A stretch of 42,359 bases of DNA from an uncultured bacterium. GTDB taxonomy: Bacteria > Hydrothermota > Tepidihabitantia > Tepidihabitantales > DTDR01. The translations under genes and the position numbers were made by a program. Numbering within the stretch: position 1 is the stretch's first letter; each line of letters begins with the position of its first letter. The stretch is taken from NCBI GenBank assembly GCA_938040315.1, contig CALHQW010000010.1, positions 1 to 42,359 of the forward strand, read 5' to 3'. A model generated the notes under the pieces. The model searched no databases. It was not told where the DNA came from and was given only the letters and a program-made list of their open reading frames with translations. Below, piece after piece: positions 6,317 through 22,730 of this stretch.

Positions 6317-8141
6317 CCATCAGGAGATTAAAAAACTTTCTATAAAGGAACTGAATGATTTGGCAAAGAAAATTAGAGAATATATTATTGAAGTGGTTGA
6401 GAATAATGGCGGTCATTTATCTGCTAATTTAGGAGTTGTTGAGTTGACAATTGCTTTACATTATGTTTTCGATTTGGAGAAAGATAAAATTCTTTTTGAT
6501 GTCGGTCATCAATGTTATACCCATAAAATTTTAACGGAAAGGGCAAAGGAATTTAGGAATTTAAGAAAGATGGGCGGTATTGCCGGGTTTCCCAAAAGAG
6601 AAGAGAGTAAATATGATATCTTCTCCTCTGGTCATTCGGGTGATACCATTTCCGTTGGCGTCGGTCTTGCTCTTTTTAAAAAGGAAGAAGAAAAGGTTAT
6701 CGTGGTAATTGGTGATGGTTCAATTCAGAGTGGTGTTGCCTTTGAAGGACTAAATTACGCCGGATTTTTACAAGTTGATATGATTGTTGTCCTTAATGAT
6801 AATGAGATGTCAATCAGTAAGACGCAAGGTGCTTTTAGTAAATACCTAAATAAAATTATTACTGATAAGCGATATTTAAGTCTAAAAAAAGAGTTAAAAA
6901 CTTTTTTAAATATCCTGCCGGGAAAATTACGGATCGAAGGTGAAGAGTATTTAAAAAGGTTAGAGAGAAGTTTAAAGAGGATATTTTTACCAACTACTTT
7001 CTTTGAAGAGATTGGTTTTCGTTATTTCGGACCAATTGATGGTCATTCCTTATCTTCTTTAATAAAAATTTTTGAAAAAGTAAAAGAGATGAGAGGTCCA
7101 ATTTTAGTTCATGTTTTAACGAAGAAAGGCAAAGGTTATAAAAAAAGCGAAGAAAATCCAGAATATTATCACGGAATAACTGGTAAAGAAGAAAAAACAG
7201 GTAAAGAAGAAAAAGAAGGCGGAATATTTTATAATGAATACGTTGGCAAAATTCTTTGTGAAATGGCAAAAGAAAGAAAAGATTTTGTCGTGATTACTCC
7301 GGGAATGAGGTTAGGAAGCGGTTTAAAAGAATTTTCCGAAAATTTCAAAGAAAGATTTTTTGATTGTGGAATTTGTGAACAACAGGCTATTAATTTTGCT
7401 TGTGGCTTAGCATTAAAGAAGGTAAAACCAATTTTATGTATTTATTCAACTTTTTTATTAAGGGGTTATGACCAATTAATAAATTCTTGTCTATTACATA
7501 ATTTGCCCATCCTTTTTCTAATTGATCGAGCCGGTTGTGTACCGGATGATGGTGAGACCCACCAAGGAGTTTACGATATCAGTTATTTAAGATTTTTACC
7601 CAACATCACTTTTTTTGCTCCCTATTTCTTAGAGGATTTGAGAGAAATGCTCTATTTTGCTTTAGAAAAAAACTCACCAGTTTTTATTCGTTATCCAAAG
7701 GATAAAGGTGAATTTAAAAATAATAAAGGGAAAATTGAGCCTGAAATATTGAAAGAAGGAAAAGAGGGAATTATTATTGGTCTTGGTTTTGGAACAAAAA
7801 TTGGAATGGAAGTAAATAAGAAATTGGAGGAGAAGAATATTAATTTCACCTTAATTGACGCAAAGGTGATAAAGCCCTTTCCTTTTGATTTTTACAAAGA
7901 TTTATTTAAAGAAGATCTACCAATTTTTGTCATTGAAGATAATTTTAAAGAAGGTGGTTTTGGTGAATATATAAAAAGCAATTTTCCTTTTAAAAAAATA
8001 TTTAACTTTGGATTTGAAAGCAAATTTTTAGGTGTTGGTAAAAGAGAGGAGTTATTTAAAAAGGAGAAATTAGATTGGGAAGGTATTTTAGAGAGAGTGT
8101 TATCAATAATTGTTAAAGAGAAAGTTGATAAGAATGTTTAG
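6297..8141 (+). CDS. dxs: 1-deoxy-D-xylulose-5-phosphate synthase
   Basis: This is the first enzyme of the MEP isoprenoid pathway, a thiamine-diphosphate enzyme joining pyruvate and glyceraldehyde-3-phosphate. The 614-residue protein has FDVGHQCYTHKIL, the ThDP/Mg motif starting GDGSIQSG with a downstream NDNEMSIS, and the transketolase pyrimidine domain with DRAGCVPDDGETHQG (usually DRAGxVGxDGxTHxG). A small tandem duplication (GKEEKT/GKEEKE; 18-bp period at 7182-7214) sits in the interdomain linker. It overlaps the polyprenyl synthase upstream and the signal-peptide start of the SprA-like gene downstream. Confidence 0.96.
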   Translation: MDLEKINHQEIKKLSIKELNDLAKKIREYIIEVVENNGGHLSANLGVVELTIALHYVFDLEKDKILFDVGHQCYTHKILTERAKEFRNLRKMGGIAGFPKREESKYDIFSSGHSGDTISVGVGLALFKKEEEKVIVVIGDGSIQSGVAFEGLNYAGFLQVDMIVVLNDNEMSISKTQGAFSKYLNKIITDKRYLSLKKELKTFLNILPGKLRIEGEEYLKRLERSLKRIFLPTTFFEEIGFRYFGPIDGHSLSSLIKIFEKVKEMRGPILVHVLTKKGKGYKKSEENPEYYHGITGKEEKTGKEEKEGGIFYNEYVGKILCEMAKERKDFVVITPGMRLGSGLKEFSENFKERFFDCGICEQQAINFACGLALKKVKPILCIYSTFLLRGYDQLINSCLLHNLPILFLIDRAGCVPDDGETHQGVYDISYLRFLPNITFFAPYFLEDLREMLYFALEKNSPVFIRYPKDKGEFKNNKGKIEPEILKEGKEGIIIGLGFGTKIGMEVNKKLEEKNINFTLIDAKVIKPFPFDFYKDLFKEDLPIFVIEDNFKEGGFGEYIKSNFPFKKIFNFGFESKFLGVGKREELFKKEKLDWEGILERVLSIIVKEKVDKNV

Positions 8142-11100
8142 GTCTCTTCTTTTAGTTTTCTTATTTTTCTCCTCTTTCTTATTGGGAGAAAATTTTTCTG
8201 ATACTTTGCGGTTGCGGTTTGATTTCCAAAGAAACTTGGTTTATCTTGAAAAATGGCGGGATTCAGTTTTTTTAGGAGTTATCTCCGTTGAACCTTTGGA
8301 AGAATATTTAAAAAGGAGCCTGAAAGAGAAATTTTTGTTTAGTTTTTATCAAGAAAAGAAGCGGAGTTATGAGAAAAGTTTTGGTTATCAGTCCGGTTTG
8401 ATTCCAGTAATTGAACTTCCCACTTTACCCCTTTTTGGCGAGAGTAGGATAAAGATTTCGGGTGAAGACCGGATTACCTTTGGCGGTCGGCAGACACTCT
8501 ATTCTTCTCCCTTTTATCAAAGACCTTCTGCTCCAATATTGCCCGAATTAAAAATGAATCAGGAGTTAAAATTGACGGTGACCGGTGAGATTGGTGGCAA
8601 AACAAAGATAAATATTGACCACGATTCAAGAAGAATGGAGGCAAAGAATAGGATAAGTGTTATCTATACCGGAACAGAAGATGAAATAATTAGAAAACTG
8701 GAAGGTGGTGATATTAGTTTTGGTTTTCCTGCCACGAGATATACCGGTGATATTCCCAGTCATAAGGGTCTTTTTGGTTTAAGGTCCGAAGGTGCCTTGG
8801 GACCGATTGATTTTTATGTAGTTGCTTCCCGGGAACAGTCAGAGAAAAAGGATGTGGAGTTTAAAGGTAAGGCAAGTATAAAGATTGATACTTTTTATGA
8901 TTATGAATATGCCAAATATAAATTTTTTATTATTGATACCAATCCCGATATTTTGTCAAAAATAAATGATCTCCAACTCTTTTATGACGATGGTAATCCC
9001 TATAATGATATCCAAACAAATGCCTTAAGGTGTTTGGCAACAATCTATCCGAATTTTCCTGATTCTTTGCCAGTAAATCCGGATGAAAGAATAAAAGCAG
9101 GATTTGTTAGGTTGGTGATAAATAAAGACTATTATTTAAGGACTTTGATAATTTTACCTTATGGTGAGATACCAGTTATTGAACTTAATATTTCTGTTGA
9201 TAATGGTAATCTCGCCTGTTTTTACACCACTTTGGATGGTGAGACCATTGGTGGCAGAAGATATGAAGATTCGCTACTTATCTTAAAACTGATTAAGAAA
9301 AAGCGTTTTGATATTAATTCATCCCTTTTTAAATATAATTTAAGAAATATTTATTATTTAGGAGAAAAGAATGTGAAGATAAAGAAAGCAAAGATTTTTA
9401 GAATATCGGGTAGTTATTTTACTGAGTATGAGACGGAGGGAGATTATAAAGGTGAGAGTTTTTTAAAGATTTTAGGTTTGGATCCCGATAATGATGGTGA
9501 AATTAATTTTCCCTATTTTCAAAGTGGTTATGGCTTAATAGTTTTTCCTTATCTTTATCCTTTTAATAATGAGAAACTTTCGATTAGGGATTCCATTATC
9601 TATTTTAAAGAGCCTCTTTCTTATGGTGAAGGTGGAAAATATTTAATGGTAGTAGAATATGCCAGTAGTATTCAAGAGTTTTTTTTAGGAACAACTGATA
9701 TTATTGAAAATAGTGAGAAAGTTTATATTAATGGTAATTTAGCCCAAAAAGGAAGTGATTACACGATTGATTATAAAACTGGTAAGATAACTTTTTTAAA
9801 ACTACCGCCCGATGCCGAAATTAAAGTGACTTTTGAGCAATTACCCTTTTTTGCTCCTACCGCAAAAAGTTTTGGTGGTTTTCGAGCAGAAACAAAACTT
9901 TTTGAAAATCTAAAATTAGGCTCTTCTTTCCTTTTACGCAGTGAAGGAAGTTATACTGATAAACCAGAGATTGGTTATGAGCCTTTTAATAAAGGAATTT
10001 TCTCTTTTAATCTTTCTTATTTAAAAGATTTTGATTTCCTGCGCTGCCAAGCAAGTGGTGAAATTGCCAGTTCTTTTAAAAATAGTAATACCCTTAATAA
10101 TGCTTATATTGATAATTTTGAAGAGACCTCTTTAGAACATCCCTTAGAAATGAAAGGCTCTTATTTCTTTTTTGCACCAATTCCCTATTTTAGTGATACC
10201 CATCATTTTATAAAAAGTTTTCCGAAGATTAAAAATCCCAGAGAAGAGAATTATATTAGAAGAGATTCAATTTTTGGTAGTCAGATTGGTGAAGAGGGAA
10301 GAGAAAAAGATAATTATTTAATAATTGAAGTTAATAAGGAAAATAGTAATAATGAATGGTTTGGCCTTTGTCAAGCTTTAAGTCGTGGTAGTTATCTTCA
10401 ATTGGAGAATTATGAAAATTTAGAAATGGTCTTTCGGATTGATAGTGGTGATTATGATGGTTATATTTCTTTTAGTTTGGCTTCCTATTTGGAAGAAGAT
10501 GTACCGAGAAGGACGAAGGACGGGCGGATCGTTGGTTATAATAATCTTTTTGATACGGAAGATAAAAATGGTAATAATGAATTGGAGCCGGATGAGGATT
10601 GCGGATTAGACGGAGTTTTTGGTATTGACACTTTAAATATTAAAGAGGATGACCAGAATGATGATTATCACTTTTATCTTAATCCCATGGGAACGGAGAA
10701 GAACTTTATATTAAATAGTGAAGATATTGATTTTAACGGTTTTGATGGGAAAGGAAATAATCATTATTTTTTTTATACCCTTTCTTTGAATAGTAAGAAT
10801 ATAAAAGAACTTTATAATAATTGGAAGGTTTTAACAATACCATTAAGAATGCCCGATACAATAATCGGCATACCAAATCTTAATGAGATAAGAAAATTGG
10901 CTCTTTATTTCCATAATTTTACTAAACCCTTTAAGATGAGAATTTACTCAATAAAATTTAGTGGTGTAAGATGGAAGCGACCAAGATTCTTATCAAAAGA
11001 GGTTGATACTTTAATAAGCAAGGCAAGGATATATTCTATATCTAACAAGAATATGCCCAATTACACTTCGCCCTTTAAAGTGAAAAAGGATATCAGAGGT

Positions 11101-13458
11101 CTTTATTATGAAGCAAGCCTCTGTTTAGAGATTGATTCCCTTTTTCCTTACGATACTTGTATTACCGAGATGTTTTTAGGAACTGGTCAAGATTTAAGAA
11201 AATATTCGCAGATAAGTTTTTATTTTCATAAACCAAAGGAGATTGAGGAAAGGGCAATAATGGTATATTTTAGAATTGGACTTGATAGTAGTAATTTCTA
11301 TTCTCTTACTTTACCATTATTAATAGAAAAAGAGGGTTTTTATAAAATAAGAAAAGTTCCTTATGGTGAAGATTGGTACGAAATCCAAATCTCTTTAGAT
11401 TCTTTACCCTTAGCAAAGATTGGCAGAGATTTTAAAGAGATAAAAATTAGGGGAGAGCCTTCTTTAAATAATGTCCGTTATTATGCCTTAGGAGTTTGCA
11501 ATCTATTATCTTCCAAAATTAGTTATAATGTTTGGTTTAATGATTTAAGGGTAAATAAACCAAAGAACGAAAGCGGAATTGTTTATGGTATTAATAATAG
11601 TATTAGTATTCCCAATATTGGTTTTAATACCAGTTTTAATATTGAAAAACAGAACCCCTTCTTTTCCAGATTGACCCAAGCGCCAACTCCTCCCAGTAAT
11701 GATAACTTGAACTACTCTCTCAATTCCTCTTTAGACCTATCAAAAATTCCCTATCTTTCTATGATTGGTTTTTCTTTGCCATTAAGTTATAATAAAACCG
11801 GTTCTTTTTCTAAGCCCTATTATTCCCCAAGTATTCCCGATTTGATTTTAAAAGATAATATCTTTGAAGGAAAAAGCGGTAGTGAAAGTTACAATTTCTC
11901 TTTAAGAAGAAGCAAAAGTTCGCAAAATCCCTTTTTAAAATATAGTCTTGATGCCTTTTCTTATTCTTTTGCTAAACGGTTTGGTTTTAGTAATCAGCCA
12001 TTATCTATTGATAGTAGTAATACTTTCTCCCAAAGTTTTTCTTATAATATCTCACCCGATTTGGGAATAAAAATAAAAGATGAGAAGATAAGTCTTTTTC
12101 CCAATAATATCTCTCTCTCCCTTTCTTTAAGTGATAATGAGAGTAAAAGAAAAAATCGTTCGAAAGAGAGCGATACTTTTATTAGTCAACCTAAGAGTTT
12201 GACAAAGAGTGCTGGTTTTTCTTATGGTCTTACTTATTCACCAATTTCTGATTTAAATATTGAATATTCTTGTGGAAATTATTTTAATCGGCTTGGTGTT
12301 TTCAAATCTGGAATAATGAAAGAAAAACGCACTTTCTTAGGAGTTGATGAAGGATTTTCGCGGGATATTGGAATTTCTTATAACTTTTCCTTATTGGAAA
12401 TCTTAGAACCTAATTTTTCTATTGATGGTAGTTATGATGAGGGTCGGGAAAGAATGCGGGGTGATACTTATACTAATCAGAGAAGAATAAGTAATGACTT
12501 TTCCTTTAATTTTGGAACCGATTTAGATTTACCAGAACTTTTTGAGAAATTTAAATTAGAAAAAATTAGCAATTACTTTGATGCTATCAACTTTGATTAT
12601 AATTTTTCAAGGGGAAGTGAATATCCCCGCATTGATTTTCGCCCAAACCTCTTATACCAATTTGGTTTTTCTGAGAATCTTCCGTATGATTCATCACTAA
12701 GGGCAAGGGATCGAGAATATTCTTTGGGATTAGGTAGTTCTTTTAAAATTTCTAATCTTTCTTTAAGGTGGAATTATGAAAAAAATTGGGAAAAGAGTTT
12801 TTACGGTCTTTCATCACGACAAGGAAGCAAAGAGATAAAATTTCCTACTCTTGATATTACAATTAGTAATTTAGAAAAATTATTTACCAAATTCCTTTCC
12901 TCTTCCCAGATAAATAGTAAATTTGAGAGACGGAAAAGTCTTTCTTCTCGTTTGGCACCGGATGGTAGTTTTATTTTGGAAGAAAGAAATGAAAATATTA
13001 ATTACAACTTTTCACCATTAATTGGTTGGCAACTTAATTTTAAAAATAGAATGAACACAACAATAAATATCAATTATAATAAAGGCTACAATTATAATGC
13101 TTTAAGCAATATTAAAAATTACAATGAAAATAAAGGTTTCTCCCTTTCCTATTCTTATAGTTTCTCTTTAAAAGAGGGAATAAAAATACCTTTCTTCAAA
13201 AGAATAAAATTGACTCAAGATATCAATTTTTCTGGTAATTTTAATTACAATTTAAACGAAAATTATTATCTAAGAGAATTGAAAAAGACCTTTCTTTCTC
13301 GCTCTGGTAATTACAATCTTTCCCTTTCCTTTTCCTATCAACTTTCTACTTATACTCAGATTGGCTTAAATACTTCCTATTCTAATTCTAAAAATCTTCT
13401 AAAACAGGATAAAATCCAATCAATCGACATAAATATGTGGGTATTATTTAGATTTTAA
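8134..13458 (+). CDS. SprA/Sov-like type IX secretion outer-membrane protein
   Basis: SprA/Sov is the giant 36-strand outer-membrane barrel that exports type IX secretion cargo. This 1,774-residue protein has an N-terminal signal peptide (MFRSLLLVFLFFSSFLLG). Around residues 105-180 comes a stretch typical of SprA: KISGEDRITFGGRQTLYSS, then ELKMNQELKLTVTGEIG, then NIDHDSRR. The rest is rich in alternating aromatic/polar beta-strand sequence (repeated SYSFS, NYNFS), and the last residue is Phe, as expected for a barrel inserted by BAM. I chose ATG 8134 over an upstream in-frame TTG (8110) because it gives a clean signal peptide. It overlaps dxs by 8 nt. It is shorter than Bacteroidetes SprA (about 2,300-2,500). 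Confidence 0.88.
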   Translation: MFRSLLLVFLFFSSFLLGENFSDTLRLRFDFQRNLVYLEKWRDSVFLGVISVEPLEEYLKRSLKEKFLFSFYQEKKRSYEKSFGYQSGLIPVIELPTLPLFGESRIKISGEDRITFGGRQTLYSSPFYQRPSAPILPELKMNQELKLTVTGEIGGKTKINIDHDSRRMEAKNRISVIYTGTEDEIIRKLEGGDISFGFPATRYTGDIPSHKGLFGLRSEGALGPIDFYVVASREQSEKKDVEFKGKASIKIDTFYDYEYAKYKFFIIDTNPDILSKINDLQLFYDDGNPYNDIQTNALRCLATIYPNFPDSLPVNPDERIKAGFVRLVINKDYYLRTLIILPYGEIPVIELNISVDNGNLACFYTTLDGETIGGRRYEDSLLILKLIKKKRFDINSSLFKYNLRNIYYLGEKNVKIKKAKIFRISGSYFTEYETEGDYKGESFLKILGLDPDNDGEINFPYFQSGYGLIVFPYLYPFNNEKLSIRDSIIYFKEPLSYGEGGKYLMVVEYASSIQEFFLGTTDIIENSEKVYINGNLAQKGSDYTIDYKTGKITFLKLPPDAEIKVTFEQLPFFAPTAKSFGGFRAETKLFENLKLGSSFLLRSEGSYTDKPEIGYEPFNKGIFSFNLSYLKDFDFLRCQASGEIASSFKNSNTLNNAYIDNFEETSLEHPLEMKGSYFFFAPIPYFSDTHHFIKSFPKIKNPREENYIRRDSIFGSQIGEEGREKDNYLIIEVNKENSNNEWFGLCQALSRGSYLQLENYENLEMVFRIDSGDYDGYISFSLASYLEEDVPRRTKDGRIVGYNNLFDTEDKNGNNELEPDEDCGLDGVFGIDTLNIKEDDQNDDYHFYLNPMGTEKNFILNSEDIDFNGFDGKGNNHYFFYTLSLNSKNIKELYNNWKVLTIPLRMPDTIIGIPNLNEIRKLALYFHNFTKPFKMRIYSIKFSGVRWKRPRFLSKEVDTLISKARIYSISNKNMPNYTSPFKVKKDIRGLYYEASLCLEIDSLFPYDTCITEMFLGTGQDLRKYSQISFYFHKPKEIEERAIMVYFRIGLDSSNFYSLTLPLLIEKEGFYKIRKVPYGEDWYEIQISLDSLPLAKIGRDFKEIKIRGEPSLNNVRYYALGVCNLLSSKISYNVWFNDLRVNKPKNESGIVYGINNSISIPNIGFNTSFNIEKQNPFFSRLTQAPTPPSNDNLNYSLNSSLDLSKIPYLSMIGFSLPLSYNKTGSFSKPYYSPSIPDLILKDNIFEGKSGSESYNFSLRRSKSSQNPFLKYSLDAFSYSFAKRFGFSNQPLSIDSSNTFSQSFSYNISPDLGIKIKDEKISLFPNNISLSLSLSDNESKRKNRSKESDTFISQPKSLTKSAGFSYGLTYSPISDLNIEYSCGNYFNRLGVFKSGIMKEKRTFLGVDEGFSRDIGISYNFSLLEILEPNFSIDGSYDEGRERMRGDTYTNQRRISNDFSFNFGTDLDLPELFEKFKLEKISNYFDAINFDYNFSRGSEYPRIDFRPNLLYQFGFSENLPYDSSLRARDREYSLGLGSSFKISNLSLRWNYEKNWEKSFYGLSSRQGSKEIKFPTLDITISNLEKLFTKFLSSSQINSKFERRKSLSSRLAPDGSFILEERNENINYNFSPLIGWQLNFKNRMNTTININYNKGYNYNALSNIKNYNENKGFSLSYSYSFSLKEGIKIPFFKRIKLTQDINFSGNFNYNLNENYYLRELKKTFLSRSGNYNLSLSFSYQLSTYTQIGLNTSYSNSKNLLKQDKIQSIDINMWVLFRF

Positions 13459-13941: not shown

Positions 13942-15054
13942 ATGAGAAGAAAAATTCTTTTATTTAATTTATTTATCTTTAGTTTAATTTTTTCCTTGGA
14001 GATAGAAGTTCTTGATACTCCCAATGATGCTGGTAATTCATTGACAATTCTTATTAAAAAACCAGCAGCGGTTGATTATTACGAAGTCTATCGGAAAGAA
14101 GAAGGTAAAGAATTTTCTCTTATTGGCAAGTTGACAAAAGAAGAGAGGAGTTTTCTTGATGATAAAGTGATGAGAGGAAAACTCTATACCTATCAAATTG
14201 TTGGTGTAAGAGATACTTTTAAAATCTTTTCTAATATTTCTTCGGCGATTGCTAAGGCACAATTTTTTAATACCGCCCGAATTAATGTCTTGGTTGGCAT
14301 TATTATCTTTTCTTTTTTTATTCTTTATTTTATTAAAAAGGCAAGAAAAGGAGAGAGGCTTTTTATTAGGCGAATAAGTGGTTTAGATGCGGTGGAAGAG
14401 GCGGTTGGTCGGGCAACGGAAATGGGAAAACCAATTTTGTTTGTGCCCGGAATTGGTAGTGTGGCTGATATTGCTACCATTGCTGCTTTAAATATCCTTG
14501 GTGAGGTTGCTAAGAAAACTGCTGAATATGAAACTACTTTATTAGTTCCTAATCGGGATGTATTGGTTTACACAGTTGCTTACGAAGTGGTGAAGGAGGC
14601 TTATAGTAATGTTGGCAGACCTGATGCTTTCAAAGAGGGTAATATCTTTTATATTACTGATAGTCAATTTGCCTTTACTGCAGCGGTTGATGGTATTATG
14701 GTAAGGGAAAAGCCAGCAACAAACTTCTTTTTAGGAACTTTTTATGCCGAATCATTAATCTTAGCAGAAACAGGTGCTGCTACTGGTGCTATCCAGATTG
14801 CCGGAACTGATATGGTTCCCCAACTACCTTTTTTTATTGTTGCCTGTGATTATACTTTAATTGGTGAAGAACTTTATGCTGCCTCTGCTTATCTTTCCAG
14901 AGAACCGCTTTTATTAGGTTCTTTAAAAGGACAAGATTATGGAAAATTGATTATTCTCCTTATTTTGCTTATCGGTTCTTTATTACTTTTACTCTCTTAT
15001 CTTCCTTCATTTTCATTCTTTTCCAAGATAATTGAATTTTTTAATGTTTCTTAA
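13942..15054 (+). CDS. DUF6754-domain membrane protein with FN3-like ectodomain
   Basis: The function is unknown. The 370-residue protein starts with a signal peptide (about 1-20). An FN3-like beta domain follows at about 20-100, with DYYEVYRKEEGKEFSLIG and a late YTYQIVGVRD strand. Next come a transmembrane helix (about 113-133), the conserved DUF6754 domain (about 145-335; KPILFVPGIGSVADIATIAA, GAATGAIQIAGTDMVPQLPF) and a C-terminal helix (about 332-355). The topology suggests an extracytoplasmic FN3 domain and a cytoplasmic DUF6754 domain. It leads four genes that appear to form a membrane complex. The DUF6754 assignment rests on recognising the conserved glycine-rich segments. Confidence 0.75.
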   Translation: MRRKILLFNLFIFSLIFSLEIEVLDTPNDAGNSLTILIKKPAAVDYYEVYRKEEGKEFSLIGKLTKEERSFLDDKVMRGKLYTYQIVGVRDTFKIFSNISSAIAKAQFFNTARINVLVGIIIFSFFILYFIKKARKGERLFIRRISGLDAVEEAVGRATEMGKPILFVPGIGSVADIATIAALNILGEVAKKTAEYETTLLVPNRDVLVYTVAYEVVKEAYSNVGRPDAFKEGNIFYITDSQFAFTAAVDGIMVREKPATNFFLGTFYAESLILAETGAATGAIQIAGTDMVPQLPFFIVACDYTLIGEELYAASAYLSREPLLLGSLKGQDYGKLIILLILLIGSLLLLLSYLPSFSFFSKIIEFFNVS

Positions 15055-15069
15055 AATAAAGGAGGTTTT

Positions 15070-15693
15070 ATGCAAAGAAGTTTACCATTAGGTCTTTGTT
15101 TTATAATGGGTATTTTAATGATTCTCCAATTTTTTTCTCCCCATCCAATATCCCAACAATTTTTTGATACTATTATAAAATGGATAAGGATAATCTCAGC
15201 CTTTGCCTTGGTTTTAGGTGTAAGAAGTATCTCTTTGCGACATATTGAGACAGTAAAAAGAAGGAAAAGTGGATATATTTATAGTATCTTTACTTTATTG
15301 GCATTAGTAGTTACCGCGGTTTTGGGTCTTGTTTTTGGAATTGGGCCGAAGGCGCCGATACGCACGATTTTTAATAATATTTTAGTTCCCTTAGGAGCAA
15401 CAATGTTTTCTATTTTGGCTTTTTATATGGCTTCGGCTGCTTATCGGGCATTTAGAGCAAGGACTATTGAGGCGACCTTACTTTTAATTGCTGCCTTTAT
15501 TGTGATGTTGGGAATGGTGCCAATTGGTAATTGGATTTCACCCCATTTTCCTTCCATTGCTGAGTGGTTATTATCAGTTCCCAATATGGCAGCAAAAAGG
15601 GGAATCCTTTTTGGTGTTGCCTTAGGCGTAATTGCTACTTCTCTTAAAATAATTTTAGGAATTGAAAGAGGCTGGCTCGGTGGCCGGAGGTAA
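15070..15693 (+). CDS. Multi-spanning membrane protein of the DUF6754 cassette
   Basis: Function not recognised. The 207-residue protein has about six hydrophobic segments: near residues 5-24, 35-52, 70-93, 102-122, 134-152 and 175-196. It ends in the positively charged tail GIERGWLGGRR. It starts 15 bp after the DUF6754 gene from a strong ribosome site (AAAGGAGG then four Ts before ATG), and the next gene follows after 2 bp, so it is certainly in the same operon. The lack of enzymatic motifs suggests a structural or channel-like membrane partner. Confidence 0.8.
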   Translation: MQRSLPLGLCFIMGILMILQFFSPHPISQQFFDTIIKWIRIISAFALVLGVRSISLRHIETVKRRKSGYIYSIFTLLALVVTAVLGLVFGIGPKAPIRTIFNNILVPLGATMFSILAFYMASAAYRAFRARTIEATLLLIAAFIVMLGMVPIGNWISPHFPSIAEWLLSVPNMAAKRGILFGVALGVIATSLKIILGIERGWLGGRR

Positions 15694-15695
15694 TT

Positions 15696-16535
15696 ATGAA
15701 AATCTTAGAATTCTTGACTAAAATACCAAGAAGAATTATCTTTTTAATTTTAGCAATCTTTGTTATCTTCCCCTTATTTTATCCTCTCAATTTGACAACA
15801 AAAGTTTCAGTAAGAACTCTTGATTTATTTAAGGCGATTGATAATTTAAAGGGTGAGAAACCAGTTTTAATTTCAATTGATTTTGATCCCCAATCAATGC
15901 CGGAATTGTATCCAATGTATATTTCAATATTGAGACATTGCTTTTCCAAAAATATTCCAGTTATTGTTCTTGGTTTATGGATTACTGGCGTGGGAATTGG
16001 TGAAGAGGGATTAAAAATGATAGCCAGTGAATATAATAAAGAATATGGAAAAGACTATATCTTTCTTGGTTGGAAGCCAGGAATAACCGCAGTGATTTTA
16101 GGATTAGGAAGAAGTTTAAAAGAGACCTTTCCAACCGATTATTATAAAAATCCCTTAGAAAGTTTGCCCTTAGCATTAAAAGTAGAGACTTATAAAGATA
16201 TTCCTTTTATGGTAAGTCTTTCTGCTGGTTCACCAGGATATGGCGATTGGATTGCCTATGCCCAGACAAGATACGGAGTGAAGATCGGTGCTGGTGTAAC
16301 AGCAGTTTCCGCAGCGGATGCCTATCCTTATTTGCAATCAGGTCAATTGACCGGTCTTTTATCAGGGTTAAAAGGCGCTTCTGAATATGAGTATTTAGTA
16401 GAAAAATATGGATATTCTAAGGCCTTTAAAAGCGCTACCCAACTTATGGATTCCCAATCTTTTGCCCATCTTATAATTATGATATTAGTAATAATTGGCA
16501 ATATTGGTTATTTCTTTTTAAGGAGGAGAAAATGA
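15696..16535 (+). CDS. Membrane-anchored protein of the DUF6754 cassette
   Basis: Function not recognised. The 279-residue protein has a transmembrane segment at each end (about 12-31 and 255-274) and a globular domain between. That domain has alternating strand/helix segments (KPVLISIDFDPQSMPEL, IPVIVLGLWITG, DYIFLGWKPG) that resemble a Rossmann-like alpha/beta fold, and a late GVKIGAGVTAVSAADAYPYL segment. With the N-terminus cytoplasmic, the domain would be extracytoplasmic. GGAGG at 15686-15690 sets the start. It overlaps the next gene by 4 nt (ATGA). Confidence 0.8.
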   Translation: MKILEFLTKIPRRIIFLILAIFVIFPLFYPLNLTTKVSVRTLDLFKAIDNLKGEKPVLISIDFDPQSMPELYPMYISILRHCFSKNIPVIVLGLWITGVGIGEEGLKMIASEYNKEYGKDYIFLGWKPGITAVILGLGRSLKETFPTDYYKNPLESLPLALKVETYKDIPFMVSLSAGSPGYGDWIAYAQTRYGVKIGAGVTAVSAADAYPYLQSGQLTGLLSGLKGASEYEYLVEKYGYSKAFKSATQLMDSQSFAHLIIMILVIIGNIGYFFLRRRK

Positions 16536-17161
16536 ATATTTCTTTAGATATTTGGACCTGGATAAGTGCAATTTTAACTTTATTTATATTCTCCTTCTTG
16601 TATGGTGATAATCCCTTTTATAAATTTGCCGAGCATATATTTGTCGGTGTTTCCGTTGGTTATACAATCGCGATTACTTGGCATAATTTCTTATATCCCG
16701 ATTTAATCGTTCCAGTCTTTAAACAGGGAAATTTAATAAATCTAATTCCTGCTTTTTTGGGAGTTTTATATTTTTCAGTTTTCTTTAAAAATCTCTCTTG
16801 GATGATAAGGATTCCGATTGGTTTTTTATTAGGCTATGGCTCAGGAGTAGCAATTCCAGCAATCTTTCAGGCAAATATCATTAGACAGATACAAGGAAGT
16901 TTGTTAACGCCAAAGATCTTAGAGAGAAAAGATTTATTAATTGGTAGTATTATATCTTTATTCGGAATTATTTCTACCATAATTTATTTCTTCTTCTCAA
17001 GAGAGCAAAAAGGGGTTTCTAAAATATTAGCAAAATGTGGAATAGTCTTTTTAATGATTGGTTTTGGCGCTTCTTTTGGATTTACTGTGATGGCAAGGGT
17101 TTCCTTACTTTTAGGTAGATTACAATTTTTATTAAGAGATTGGCTTGGATTAATTAAATAA
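16532..17161 (+). CDS. Polytopic membrane protein of the DUF6754 cassette
   Basis: Function not recognised. The 209-residue protein has about six hydrophobic helices. Conserved-looking features are an N-terminal FLYGDNPFYKFAEHIFVGVSVGYT stretch and a FGFTVMARVSLLLGRLQFLL C-terminal helix. It starts from AAGGAGG within the end of the previous gene and is the last gene of the cassette. No plus-strand terminator with a U-tract is seen; the strong hairpin 10 bp downstream is oriented for minus-strand transcripts but would also fold in read-through RNA. Confidence 0.8.
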   Translation: MNISLDIWTWISAILTLFIFSFLYGDNPFYKFAEHIFVGVSVGYTIAITWHNFLYPDLIVPVFKQGNLINLIPAFLGVLYFSVFFKNLSWMIRIPIGFLLGYGSGVAIPAIFQANIIRQIQGSLLTPKILERKDLLIGSIISLFGIISTIIYFFFSREQKGVSKILAKCGIVFLMIGFGASFGFTVMARVSLLLGRLQFLLRDWLGLIK

Positions 17162-17196
17162 AAATAAAAAAGGGCAGGGTTTTAAAACCCTGCCCT
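17161..17196 (-). terminator. Strong intrinsic terminator (minus strand)
   Basis: 17171-17196 is a perfect 26-base palindrome: two 13-base arms, the left one AGGGCAGGGTTTT. On the minus strand it is followed by TTTTTATTTT (17170-17161). It would end either the kinase transcript 258 nt after its stop or a separate small RNA. Confidence 0.85.
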
Positions 17197-17453: not shown

Positions 17454-20400
17454 TTATAGAGATTCTTTAAATTGGGCTCGGTTAATTTCGTATCTTTTTA
17501 TTAATCTTTGTAATTGTCTTCTATGGATACCTAATTGTTGGGCAGCGTGGGTTACATTGCCTTTTGTATTTTTTAATACTTCAATAATTTCTTCTTTTGA
17601 TAAAGTTTTTCTATTTATCTTTTCTATATTTATTTTTTGGAGTATTTCTGATAATTGTGGTTTGATTGTTATTAAATCATCTACCGAAATTCTTTTTTTA
17701 GTTGCCGCAACAACTGCGTAATGGACTAAATTTTGGAGTTCTCTAATATTTCCTGGCCAGGGATATTCCATTAATACAGAAATTGCTAAATCTTCAAAGC
17801 CAATAATTTGTTTATTATAAATTTGAGAAAATCTTTTTAAGAAATGGTTAGCAAAATGGGGAATATCACTTTTTCTTTCTCTTAATGGTGGTAAATGGAT
17901 AGTGACTGCATTTATCCGATAATAAAGGTCTTCTTTAAATGTTCCTTTTTTTACTTCCTCTTCTAAGTTTTTGTTAGTGGCGCAGATAAGTCGCACATCA
18001 ACTCTTTTTGTTTCAGTACTACCAACTTTTCTAATTATTTTCGTTTCTAAAAATTCTAAAATCTTTGGTTGGGTATTTAAAGGTATATTGGATATTTCAT
18101 CTAAGAAGATTGTTCCGCCGTCAGCCATTTCTAATAAACCTTCTTTATCTCTAACTGCGCCAGTAAATGCCCCTTTTACATGACCAAAAAGTTCAGATTC
18201 AAAGAGCGTTTCTGTAAGACCGCCACAATTAATTGTATAAAATTTCTTTCCACTTCTTTTACTTTTATTATGGATATATTCAGCAAGGACATTTTTTCCT
18301 GTTCCGGTTTCGCCGGTCAAAAGAATAGTGCATTCTGCTGGTGCGACTTTTTCTATTATTTCGTAGATTTTTTTCATCTGTTTTGATTTTCCTAAAATAA
18401 AACCTGTTTTTTCATCAATTATTAATCTTTCTTGAGAAATTATTGCATCCCTTTGTATTCTGGTAAAGATACTTGATCTATCAATTGTCGCAGCAAGAAG
18501 ATGGGCAATAGACATTAATAAACTTCTATCTTCCTCAAAGAAAATATGGGAAGTTATCCTTGAATCTAAATATATCGCACCAATAATTTTATCATTTGTT
18601 TTTAAAGGAACGCATAATAATGAACGAATTTTATTTAAAATCACACTCTTGGCATTTTTAAATCTTGGATCATTTAAGGCATCACTTACTAAAATTGGTT
18701 CAGGTACATATTTTATTCTTTTTATTGCCGACATTGATATCTGTGTCGCATCTTCTAAGGTTGAATGGTCAATTGCCCTTGCTGCGACCGGTGTTAATTT
18801 ATCATGGTGAAATAAGAACAAAATCCCCCTTTCCGCACCAGTCGCATCAATTGTTAAATCAATAATTTTTTCAAAAAAGTCTTCTTTTTCAACACCTAAA
18901 TTAATAATTTCCGAAATCTGATAAAATATTTTTAGATATTGACTTCTTTCAGAAACTTTTAATGTTCCGCTCTTTTCTAATTCTTTAACCTGTTTTTCTA
19001 ATAAATCAATAAATTCCAAATCCATCTTTGCCTTATAATCTTCAAAAATAACTTTTGCTTCTTCTAAATAAGATTTTAAAGATTGTAATTCTTTGTTATC
19101 CAATATTCTAAATCCAATAGTTTCACTTAATAGAAAAACTGGATTTTCAGGAATTTTTTTATAGCCCATTGTTAAAAAGAGCAATGTTTTTGCTATTTCA
19201 TATTTTATATTTAGTTTTTTATATTGAGAAATAACTGAAAATAATTTTTCTTTTCCCTCTTCTAATTTGCCAAGAAGCATCTGGCAAACTCCTAATAGTC
19301 TTTCACCATTTAAATAGGCAAAGATTTCACTTTTTTCCGAGATTATTGATAAAACCTTTTCCGCACACTCCTTTGCTTTTTTGATTTCGCCAAACAGAAG
19401 ATAAAATTCACCAGAAAATAAATAAAAATCAATTTCATCTTTCTTAATTATTTTTCCTGCCTGTTTTTTTAATTCTTCAAAATAAGAAAAACTCTGAGAA
19501 AGATCACCCTGTGCCAAATAATAAAGAATTTTTGATTTATTTAAATGGTAATCTAATTCAAATTTTTGGATTGATTCTTTTATATTTTCTAAGGTATTGA
19601 GAATATTTTCTGCCTCTTTTAATTTTCCCATTTTAATTAATAGTTCAAGATAATTTAAGTTTATAGCATAATAATAGTAATCTTTTGGTTGTTTTTCATA
19701 AATTTCTATTAATTCTTGATAAATCTCTTCTGCCTTTTGCCAATCATAAAAAGAATATAAACCAGCAAGATTTATTAAGCAGGTTCTTTCTTGTTCAATC
19801 ATGCCACTTCTTTTTGCTTTATTTAAGGCTTCTTCAAAATAATATCTTGCTTTATCAAACTCATTTTTTGTTCCTAAAATTGAGCCTACTCCAATTTCTG
19901 AGGAGATGATATTTGCTACTGATTTTCTTTCTAAACTTTCTTCATAGGATTTTTTATAAATTTTTTCTACTTCTTCTAAATCTCCTTTCGTAAAGAGTAA
20001 ACTGGCATAAAATTGTTCAAAACGATTGTATAACACTGGTTCAAAATCTTTTCCCATTTCTATAACATTTTTCATAATTCTTAAAGCATCGTCCAATTTT
20101 CCTTGATACCAATATAAAATGCTTAAATTATAATAAATACTTGCCTTTATTCTTTTTTCAATTTTTTTCTTTAAATTATTACTTAAATTGAGTGCCCTTT
20201 CTAAAGTTTTTTCTGCTTCTGTTAATCTATTAGTTTTGATCAAGGCAAAACCTTTATCGGTTAATAGTTTTATTGCCAATTCACTTTTTAAATCTTTTTC
20301 AAAATTTAGCCCTTCATCAAAATAATTAATTGCCTCTTCATATTTTCCTAAAAGAAGGGAGGCCACTCCTTGTTTTCTTAAAAACTTACTAATGATACCT

Positions 20401-22730
20401 TTTTCCTCTAAAATTTCTTTATCACTGAAGGCAACGCTAATTGCTTGTTTATAGGTGTCAATTGCTTCATTATACATTCCTAATAATTCCCGTAATTTAC
20501 CAATTTCTTCCAATGTATTAATTCTTTCTATTGCTTTTGCTTGTTTTGGTAAGAATTTTAATTTCATTTCATAAAAAATTAGGCTCTCTTTAAATAGAGA
20601 TAAATTTTTTGCCTTTTCGGCTGCTAAACTATTATAATATAGTGCTTCTTGCTGATTTTCTCCTTGAGCATAATGGAAGGCTAAATCAAAGATTACTTCT
20701 TCTTTATTTTTATCTTCTAACAGTTCTAAGGAGTTAGCAATTTTTTGGTGATACTCTTTTCTTTCTTCATAAAAAATTCCCTCTTGAATAATTACTTCCA
20801 ATATCTTAGAAGTGAAATAATATTTTGCACCTCTTTCTGATTTTATTGGTTTTAAAAAATTACTATTGATTAAAGATTGAATTTTTTTATAGATAAACTC
20901 TTCTTTATAATTTAACGCCTTTTTAATAAGTTCATCGGAAAAGGGTTTACCGAAAAGAGCACCGATTCTTAAAATTTCTAATTCTTCTTTGGATAATCTT
21001 TTAACCCGATTTTTAATAATTGTTGAAATATTTGTTGGTAGTGCAGTGAAGTCTTTTAAAAACTTTTCAAATTTCTCTTTATTATAAATAAATTTTCCAT
21101 CCGTAAAAATTAATATCTCCGATTCTAAAAGGTGATAAATTATTTCAATAATAAATAAAGGATTTCCTCCGGTAAGATGATAAAGGGCATTACTAAATTC
21201 TTCCAAATTAACACAAGGAGAAAGTAAATCTTTAATTAAAAGGAAAGTTTCTTCTTCGTCTAATGGTGGAAGTTCAATTAAGGAAAAGGTCTCCTTCTTT
21301 TTAAAGAGAGAGGAGAATTCAAGAAGTCTTTCTTCTTTTAGCGAACAGCCCAAAACAAAAATTCCTTCTTTTTCTAAGCCATAGGTGATATATCTAAAAA
21401 GATTTAAAGAAAGTCCGTCCATTAATTCTAAATCATCAAAGAATAAGAAAATTGGGCGGTTTTCTTTTTTTCTTATATCAATAATTGTTTGAAAGATTAT
21501 TTCGTAGAGGGTTAAAAGTTCTTTTTGAGCAGTCTCAATATCCCATTCTTCTAAGTTAAGTTTAAAATTAAGTAATTCTTTATTATATAAAGAAAAAGTT
21601 TTTATAAATTGTTCTAAGAGTGAGATATAACGTCCGCCAAGAGAACCACCGGTAAAATTAAAAGTAAGTGCATTTTCTACTTGGGCAAAGTACTTAAACT
21701 CTTGTGCTAATCTTGATTTACCAACTCCTCTTTCGCCCAGGATTAAAACAAATTTACTTTTATTTTCTTCTTTAACTTCCTTAAATAGATTCTTTAATTT
21801 TTCTAAAAATTCTTCGCGACCGATAAAACTTGTTGGATTTATTCTTTTTTGATAGGTTTTAAATTCAATAGTTTTTTCTTTTTTTAATAAGGGTTTTATA
21901 ATCTCAAAAATTTCGTAGGCATAATTTGGTCTTTTATTTACATTATAAGATATCAAATTATGGACCAACAAAGAGAATTTTTTTGGAGGAATTGGTAAAT
22001 TATTCTTTTTTGCTAATTCTTCACAGAAAGGAAGTTTTTCTTTGATAATCATTTCTAAGAATTTTAAGATATTAAAAGAATATTTTTTAGGGCCTTCTTG
22101 AGTGATAATTTCATACAAAATAACTCCTAAAGAATAAAAATCAGTTCGTGGGTCAATATAAGTTCCTTTTAATAGTTCTGGTGCGCAATAGCCGATAGTT
22201 CCACCAATTTCTAATGAAAGGGGTGCAATTTTTTCAGTAAATCCGAAATCTAATAATTTTATAACCGGTTCCTTTTCATTATATTTATCAATTTTTATTG
22301 AAACAAGAATATGTTCAGGTTTTAAATCTCCGTGGATTACCGAAAAAGAATGGATAAAATCTAAAACTTTTAAAATTTCAACAAGAACTAAAAGTAAATC
22401 ATCATTATAACCATTGGAGAAAAATTTATCAATAGGTAATCCTTCAAAATATTCCATTGTAAAAAATGGTAAAGAGTCATCCGAATAATTAAAATCTAAA
22501 ACGGCAATAATATTGGGATGATTAAAATGGGTAAGAAAATAAAACTCTTTAGAAATCCTTGAATAATATTCAGGTTTTTCTTTATATTCAGGTTTTAATA
22601 TTTTTAAAGCAATAACCCGATCACTAATTAGATCTTTTACCTTATAAACCTCACTAAATAAACCATCGCCTAAAAAAGATAAAACTTGATATCTATCTTT
22701 TATTAAACTTCCATCCTTAAAACCTGGCAT
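17454..22730 (-). CDS. Giant Ser/Thr kinase - ATPase - TPR - GAF - sigma-54 activator
   Basis: The 1,758-residue signal integrator has, in order: a kinase domain (about 13-275) with GDGLFSEVYKV, ALKIL, HGDLKPEH (catalytic Asp135), DFG at 161-163 and APE at 183-185; an AAA/STAND-like ATPase with Walker A GERGVGKS (332-339); TPR-like helical repeats (about 650-1240); a GAF domain (about 1255-1420); a sigma-54 activator AAA+ domain (about 1446-1670) with GETGTGKN (1473-1480), GAFTGA (1520-1525) and Walker B IFLDE; and a Fis-type helix-turn-helix (about 1732-1753). All key residues look intact. The kinase lacks the Arg of HRD (HGD). It likely activates RpoN promoters in response to ligand and phosphorylation. 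It diverges from the nitrilase gene and is flanked by TGCGACA elements. Confidence 0.93.
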   Translation of the reverse strand: MPGFKDGSLIKDRYQVLSFLGDGLFSEVYKVKDLISDRVIALKILKPEYKEKPEYYSRISKEFYFLTHFNHPNIIAVLDFNYSDDSLPFFTMEYFEGLPIDKFFSNGYNDDLLLVLVEILKVLDFIHSFSVIHGDLKPEHILVSIKIDKYNEKEPVIKLLDFGFTEKIAPLSLEIGGTIGYCAPELLKGTYIDPRTDFYSLGVILYEIITQEGPKKYSFNILKFLEMIIKEKLPFCEELAKKNNLPIPPKKFSLLVHNLISYNVNKRPNYAYEIFEIIKPLLKKEKTIEFKTYQKRINPTSFIGREEFLEKLKNLFKEVKEENKSKFVLILGERGVGKSRLAQEFKYFAQVENALTFNFTGGSLGGRYISLLEQFIKTFSLYNKELLNFKLNLEEWDIETAQKELLTLYEIIFQTIIDIRKKENRPIFLFFDDLELMDGLSLNLFRYITYGLEKEGIFVLGCSLKEERLLEFSSLFKKKETFSLIELPPLDEEETFLLIKDLLSPCVNLEEFSNALYHLTGGNPLFIIEIIYHLLESEILIFTDGKFIYNKEKFEKFLKDFTALPTNISTIIKNRVKRLSKEELEILRIGALFGKPFSDELIKKALNYKEEFIYKKIQSLINSNFLKPIKSERGAKYYFTSKILEVIIQEGIFYEERKEYHQKIANSLELLEDKNKEEVIFDLAFHYAQGENQQEALYYNSLAAEKAKNLSLFKESLIFYEMKLKFLPKQAKAIERINTLEEIGKLRELLGMYNEAIDTYKQAISVAFSDKEILEEKGIISKFLRKQGVASLLLGKYEEAINYFDEGLNFEKDLKSELAIKLLTDKGFALIKTNRLTEAEKTLERALNLSNNLKKKIEKRIKASIYYNLSILYWYQGKLDDALRIMKNVIEMGKDFEPVLYNRFEQFYASLLFTKGDLEEVEKIYKKSYEESLERKSVANIISSEIGVGSILGTKNEFDKARYYFEEALNKAKRSGMIEQERTCLINLAGLYSFYDWQKAEEIYQELIEIYEKQPKDYYYYAINLNYLELLIKMGKLKEAENILNTLENIKESIQKFELDYHLNKSKILYYLAQGDLSQSFSYFEELKKQAGKIIKKDEIDFYLFSGEFYLLFGEIKKAKECAEKVLSIISEKSEIFAYLNGERLLGVCQMLLGKLEEGKEKLFSVISQYKKLNIKYEIAKTLLFLTMGYKKIPENPVFLLSETIGFRILDNKELQSLKSYLEEAKVIFEDYKAKMDLEFIDLLEKQVKELEKSGTLKVSERSQYLKIFYQISEIINLGVEKEDFFEKIIDLTIDATGAERGILFLFHHDKLTPVAARAIDHSTLEDATQISMSAIKRIKYVPEPILVSDALNDPRFKNAKSVILNKIRSLLCVPLKTNDKIIGAIYLDSRITSHIFFEEDRSLLMSIAHLLAATIDRSSIFTRIQRDAIISQERLIIDEKTGFILGKSKQMKKIYEIIEKVAPAECTILLTGETGTGKNVLAEYIHNKSKRSGKKFYTINCGGLTETLFESELFGHVKGAFTGAVRDKEGLLEMADGGTIFLDEISNIPLNTQPKILEFLETKIIRKVGSTETKRVDVRLICATNKNLEEEVKKGTFKEDLYYRINAVTIHLPPLRERKSDIPHFANHFLKRFSQIYNKQIIGFEDLAISVLMEYPWPGNIRELQNLVHYAVVAATKKRISVDDLITIKPQLSEILQKINIEKINRKTLSKEEIIEVLKNTKGNVTHAAQQLGIHRRQLQRLIKRYEINRAQFKESL

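Follow-up and report, generated by a model that had tools for sequence, protein, structure and literature searches.

Several described families can be compared with the system considered here. GlmL/MutL proteins (PF13941; GlmL and Or-4 in NCBIfam) are accessory proteins of methylaspartate mutase and of ornithine degradation, and GlmL has been proposed to act as an ATP-dependent reactivase or chaperone for adenosylcobalamin mutases. In the PilM-PilN-PilO and type II secretion inner-membrane platform, an ASKHA protein is combined with inner-membrane partners that carry extracytoplasmic domains. The DUF6754 family (PF20539), by comparison, has no assigned function, and no paper naming it or the present gene set was found in the literature searched (also for PF20539, PF13941 and GlmL), subscription papers being outside its coverage. 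The window, that is, the whole stretch of 42,359 nucleotides analysed here, contains a cassette of four membrane protein genes, A to D, of which the first encodes a DUF6754 protein. It is a contig of a 1.49-Mb genome that is related to candidate division WOR-3, with 88% protein identity to a WOR-3 locus.

The preliminary description of this DNA had announced four closely packed genes at 13942-17161, with strong internal ribosome sites, a 4-nt overlap and a promoter of their own. Same-strand open reading frames were indeed found there (Table 1), the coordinates confirm the overlap between C and D, and B, C and D each have a strong Shine-Dalgarno sequence in front of them (AAAGGAGG, CCGGAGG and AAGGAGG, respectively). 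The promoter found no support: the 190-nt gap upstream of A has no sigma-70-like site, and such sites are not enriched in the region (15 found, 16.7 expected from shuffles). No obvious Shine-Dalgarno sequence precedes gene A, and the Rfam search of the cassette gave no match. The hairpin directly after D has its U-tract on the minus strand and thus looks like a putative terminator of the convergent kinase gene, which may work in both directions. That convergent gene encodes a 1758-aa protein in which a Ser/Thr kinase, a large AAA/TPR region, GAF, a sigma-54-activator module and a C-terminal DNA-binding helix were recognised by eye. On the other side of the cassette, a 1782-aa protein matches SprA_N (type IX secretion / gliding; E 2.8e-14), and 2 bp after its gene starts one for a MazG-type pyrophosphohydrolase.

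Table 1. Positions of the cassette genes and of neighbouring features in the window
Feature	Position	Strand	Source or remark
Gene of the 1782-aa protein	8110..13458	+	
Gene A	13942..15054	+	ORF list
Gene B	15070..15693	+	ORF list
Gene C	15696..16535	+	ORF list
Gene D	16532..17161	+	ORF list; 4-nt overlap with C
11-bp hairpin	17171..17196		AGGGCAGGG-TTTT-AAAACCCTGCCCT
Gene of the 1758-aa protein	17454..22730	-	

Protein A is a full member of DUF6754 (402 bits for a cut-off of 27 bits, E 9e-121, profile positions 2-248 of 257), and its earlier portrayal as a membrane protein with FN3 and DUF6754 domains was borne out. From hydrophobicity and the positive-inside rule, it is predicted to consist of an N-terminal hydrophobic segment, an extracytoplasmic FN3 domain (~18-105), a transmembrane helix (111-135), the cytoplasmic Rossmann-like DUF6754 domain (~146-319) and a last transmembrane helix (~322-354). 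The FN3 assignment is backed by a PDB profile match and by a fold match. In the fold search with the whole AlphaFold2 model (mean pLDDT 89), the listed matches come from FN3, so they say little on the DUF6754 domain itself. An alignment of 43 sequences places the strongest conservation in the cytoplasmic domain and not in the extracytoplasmic part, with R157, E160, E215, R255, E270, E276, Q285, Q294, C302, D303, E309, E310, D332 and K335 invariant.

The other three proteins also agree with what had been read from their translations, namely two polytopic proteins (B with ~6 hydrophobic segments, D with ~5) and a doubly anchored one, C, whose alpha/beta domain (~39-237) is flanked by transmembrane helices and is placed outside by the positive-inside rule. 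B has a conserved FxASAAYRAFRARN loop with R126 and R129 (46-sequence alignment), C has invariant H258 and N269 in its last transmembrane helix, and D has invariant E34, in a FAEH motif at the start of its second transmembrane helix, and R196 (49-sequence alignment). No family was found in more than two of the 46 B members, no Pfam family is common to the D members, and neither protein has a PDB relative. The AlphaFold2 model of C (mean pLDDT 94) gave no Foldseek match at E<=0.001 in PDB or in BFVD (viral models), and its sequence has no PDB relative. Distant fold relations of the system's proteins may exist beyond these two collections. Several candidate identities were discarded: C as an ABC-2 transporter (PF12679) reaches 16.9 bits for a cut-off of 27.2, and in only one of 48 members; B and D as subunit G of an Mrp-type Na+/H+ antiporter reach 14 for 122 and 13.7 for 97 bits (NCBIfam); and the profile match between the Rossmann-like domains of A and C is not significant as a sign of homology (probability 3.6%).

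The conservation of the cassette was followed by searching genome contigs for DUF6754. This yielded 146 relatives, and the 80 loci retained are from WOR-3, Zixibacteria, Eisenbacteria, Latescibacterota, Calditrichota, Cloacimonadota, Planctomycetota, Bdellovibrionota, Omnitrophota, Sumerlaeota, a deltaproteobacterium and rumen bacteria. If the four genes had not been conserved together, the idea of a common system would have fallen; instead, A is followed by B-C-D on the same strand in 84 of the 96 testable cassettes, over ~12 mostly uncultured phyla. An arrangement recurring so often across many phyla is far above chance. The genes remain packed, the median AB, BC and CD gaps being 8, 2 and 0 nt and staying within 30 nt in 88, 93 and 95% of cassettes, respectively. 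The exceptions to the order are mainly rumen bacteria with extra C copies, plus fragmented or cut loci. Moreover, the pairwise distance matrices of A to D correlate with r 0.81-0.91, while 500 permutations of each pair never exceeded 0.12; the correlation is partly due to common species descent. The best reading is that the four proteins would form one membrane complex, a physical association that we infer.

The window's genome has three complete ABCD cassettes, which fall in three separate clades, and in the tandem arrays of Zixibacteria the order of the copies is fixed and the paralogues clade by array position. Both patterns indicate that the ABCD duplications are old and the copies specialised. 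Other variations are local. In rumen loci (L049, L051, L052, L055, L056 and L058), A lacks FN3 and the cassette is expanded to A-B-C-C-C-D-C, and in 14-15 loci of Zixibacteria and relatives (L037:10278-12773 and similar) the tandem arrays are followed by genes for a ~116-aa basic protein and pyruvate phosphate dikinase. The dikinase, like the neighbouring M16 peptidases, SprA and MazG, was set aside as a functional clue for being clade-restricted.

The set of four turned out to be incomplete. Clustering of the genes that neighbour ABCD brought up three more that also belong to it and that stand elsewhere in the window's genome: G (~100 aa), E (~600 aa), which is an ASKHA ATPase of the GlmL/MutL type, and F (~375 aa), a barrel-sandwich protein. 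None of them is linked to ABCD here: contig 25 carries gcvPB followed by G and E side by side, and F is on contig 6. E is over the cut-off of PF13941 (MutL), with 436 bits for the genome's own protein and 415.7 bits (E 3e-124) for that of a Bdellovibrionales member, and it has the ASKHA nucleotide motifs DCGSTTTK (40 of 43 sequences), DIGGATTD (39/40) and GSGG (38/40). It misses the GlmL equivalog and subfamily cut-offs of NCBIfam (239 for 475, 233 for 600 and, for glmL_fam, 173 for 204 bits), and it has ~120 additional C-terminal residues relative to GlmL. In F, residues ~50-117 weakly match RnfC_N, NqrA_N and biotin/lipoyl barrel-sandwich domains, staying under the RnfC and NqrA cut-offs (16.8-18.5 for 25-25.6 bits, E 0.002-0.007); the middle and C-terminal parts, the latter KOW-like by eye, match no family, and no Fe-S motif was found. 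B, C, D, F and G are below the cut-off of every curated family, and for proteins B to F no PDB relative came up with a convincing E-value. Across Pfam, NCBIfam, PADLOC, PDB sequences and PDB folds, none of A to D matched a characterised complex, in line with the former judgement that no known family accounts for the set. A role in anti-phage defence or as a mobile element was also rejected: A to G have no match in PADLOC-DB, and A is absent from plasmid and phage records.

Linkage of the seven genes is seen in several phyla. In Planctomycetota, G-E-F-A-B-C-D form one run at five loci (L116-L119 and L121), a sixth (L120) starting at E. In the window's phylum, one locus (L102) reads gcvPB-G-E-F, two ABCD cassettes and lplA. 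The whole order, or the part of it held by the contig, makes up one operon in Planctomycetota, in the window's phylum (L102, L103), in Sumerlaeota and in rumen bacteria. In some members of the window's phylum, G and E are separated by two M16 peptidase genes (L104:16361-19210, L108:4419-7232).

Joint presence gives the same picture. Among 133 genomes of the window's phylum, A, E and F were each found in 128 and G in 125; G114 and G115, two sister genomes that are 94-95% complete, lack A, E, F and G altogether. With the genes in nearly all its genomes, this phylum has little statistical power (A/E and A/F, P 0.01; E/F, P 0.0003). The patchy presence in Planctomycetota makes a strong test: among 195 genomes, 54 have A and F, five only A, one only F and 135 neither (P = 4e-41), although all these P values overstate the number of events, since genomes are not independent. 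In 38 of those 54 genomes, F and A are at most 7 kb apart, and the five of 59 A-positive genomes with no F detected may be incomplete. In Bdellovibrionota, the same three of 144 genomes, reached because they hold A, have A (over the cut-off) and F; over many phyla, F was found in 28 of 30 ABCD genomes. Therefore, by fixed order, joint presence and absence, and co-evolution, all read from genomes, G-E-F and ABCD are one evolutionary unit, and that such a seven-gene unit exists we hold as practically certain.

As regards copy number, A is present 1-7 times per genome in the 133 genomes, G once, and E and F once, apart from a divergent set. Since E, F and G are nearly always single-copy, a single soluble ATPase module is probably shared by several membrane modules. 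In several genomes, a divergent E' (MutL-like) and F' (barrel-sandwich) are fused in a single reading frame of roughly 840-990 aa (839-950 aa in L096:7056-9854, L097:4923-7772 and L101:8254-10770), with no ABCD beside it and no mutase recognised near. The fusion suggests that E and F act together, and the lack of a neighbouring ABCD that they may do so without it.

The preliminary description had proposed an undescribed system. With a set that is conserved together and matches no characterised complex, this is still the best reading, and as far as could be checked the seven-gene system is undescribed. For its mechanism, we tentatively prefer a model that we regard as quite possible, if somewhat short of probable, in which ABCD would be the inner-membrane module of a seven-protein system driven by a soluble ATPase module. 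E would hydrolyse ATP as an ASKHA protein and team up with F in a single soluble machine, in which G would be a small coupling part, and this module would dock on A at its highly conserved Rossmann-like domain in the cytoplasm. With B and D as the relaying membrane subunits, an ATP-dependent conformational change might then reach the extracytoplasmic side, where C with its alpha/beta domain (and A with its FN3 domain) would recognise a substrate or an envelope partner. Different ABCD paralogues could in this way address different targets through one shared ATPase module. The work done would most likely be energised transport or remodelling across the inner membrane, transport being suggested by the architecture only. 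Such ATP-driven trans-membrane coupling is our best reading, still unproven, and several observations count against it: many genomes, the window's among them, have E and F away from ABCD, the fused E'-F' has no ABCD next to it, F was not detected in the five A-positive Planctomycetota genomes mentioned above, and C has no recognisable substrate-binding fold.

The nearest family of E, GlmL/MutL, leads to the first alternative, according to which E-F would be an ATP-dependent reactivase or chaperone and ABCD its client, a membrane enzyme with its active site in the cytoplasmic domain of A. The ~14 invariant polar residues of that domain, with C302-D303 among them, are typical of a catalytic or cofactor site. 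However, E falls under the GlmL cut-offs and is longer at its C-terminus, the fold searches with A and C gave no known enzyme or cofactor fold, and the genes around E in the loci read were gcvPB, G, F, ABCD or unrelated ones, none of them recognised as an adenosylcobalamin-dependent mutase; we think that this explanation is rather unlikely. A trans-envelope scaffold following the logic of PilM-PilN-PilO, with an inner ASKHA protein arranging membrane proteins that build an envelope structure through their extracytoplasmic domains, would fit the combination of an ASKHA protein with bitopic and polytopic partners carrying extracytoplasmic FN3 and alpha/beta domains, as well as the multiple paralogues in fixed order. 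It is nevertheless distinctly unlikely in our opinion, as no pilin, secretin, outer-membrane or peptidoglycan-binding gene recurs near the cassette, A is best conserved in its cytoplasmic domain and not outside, and the rumen members do without FN3.

A role in glycine cleavage or lipoate metabolism comes to mind from the genes on either side, gcvPB before G-E and a lipoate-protein-ligase gene after the last D. Of 22 E loci in the window's phylum, 14 have gcvPB (glycine dehydrogenase subunit 2) upstream, often overlapping G (e.g., L102:884-13104, L089:1540-8117), and lipoate-ligase-like genes come directly after the last D in L102-L104; yet gcvPB was detected upstream of E in none of seven loci in Planctomycetota, where G-E-F-ABCD stands alone, and in none of 13 from other phyla, several having too little upstream DNA, which makes this role improbable. 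Least probable, and very much so, is an Rnf/Nqr-like ion-translocating redox complex with F as NqrA/RnfC-like, B and D as ~200-aa polytopic subunits and C as extracytoplasmic subunit, for which the weak RnfC_N and NqrA_N matches of F, comparable subunit sizes, the invariant intramembrane H258/N269 (C) and E34 (D) and a tandem cassette (L123) adjoining a 2-oxoacid:ferredoxin oxidoreductase-like cluster (by eye) can be adduced, while the F matches fall under curated cut-offs, F has no Fe-S motif and no Rnf/Nqr integral-subunit family matched among 46 B and 49 D members.

Being kept in ~96% of the genomes of one phylum and in ~12 other phyla, the system must be important to those cells. The linkage with E, F and G gives DUF6754 defined partners, and the function is testable in a genetically tractable planctomycete, since the carriers include Planctomycetota with single-contig (possibly cultured) genomes. 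If ATP-driven coupling were true, a GlmL-like ATPase would be performing trans-membrane work. The further claim that this is a new kind of inner-membrane machine driven by ATP, with a GlmL-like ASKHA ATPase and a barrel-sandwich partner energising several interchangeable membrane modules across the membrane by a coupling principle distinct from those of ABC, ECF, TonB-ExbBD and Mot, is in our opinion somewhat doubtful.

Compared with the known systems, the likeness to PilM-PilN-PilO and the type II secretion platform is one of logic only: no sequence or fold relation was found, and genes for pilins, secretins or ATPase motors do not recur near ABCD. F is weakly alike to the N-terminal barrel-sandwich domains of NqrA/RnfC and to biotin/lipoyl domains, under all cut-offs and with no Fe-S motif. 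With GlmL/MutL, E shares the entire ASKHA core, including the DCGSTTTK, DIGGATTD and GSGG motifs; it differs in staying under the equivalog and subfamily cut-offs, in its longer C-terminus, in having no mutase recognised beside it and in being tied to F, G and a membrane cassette.
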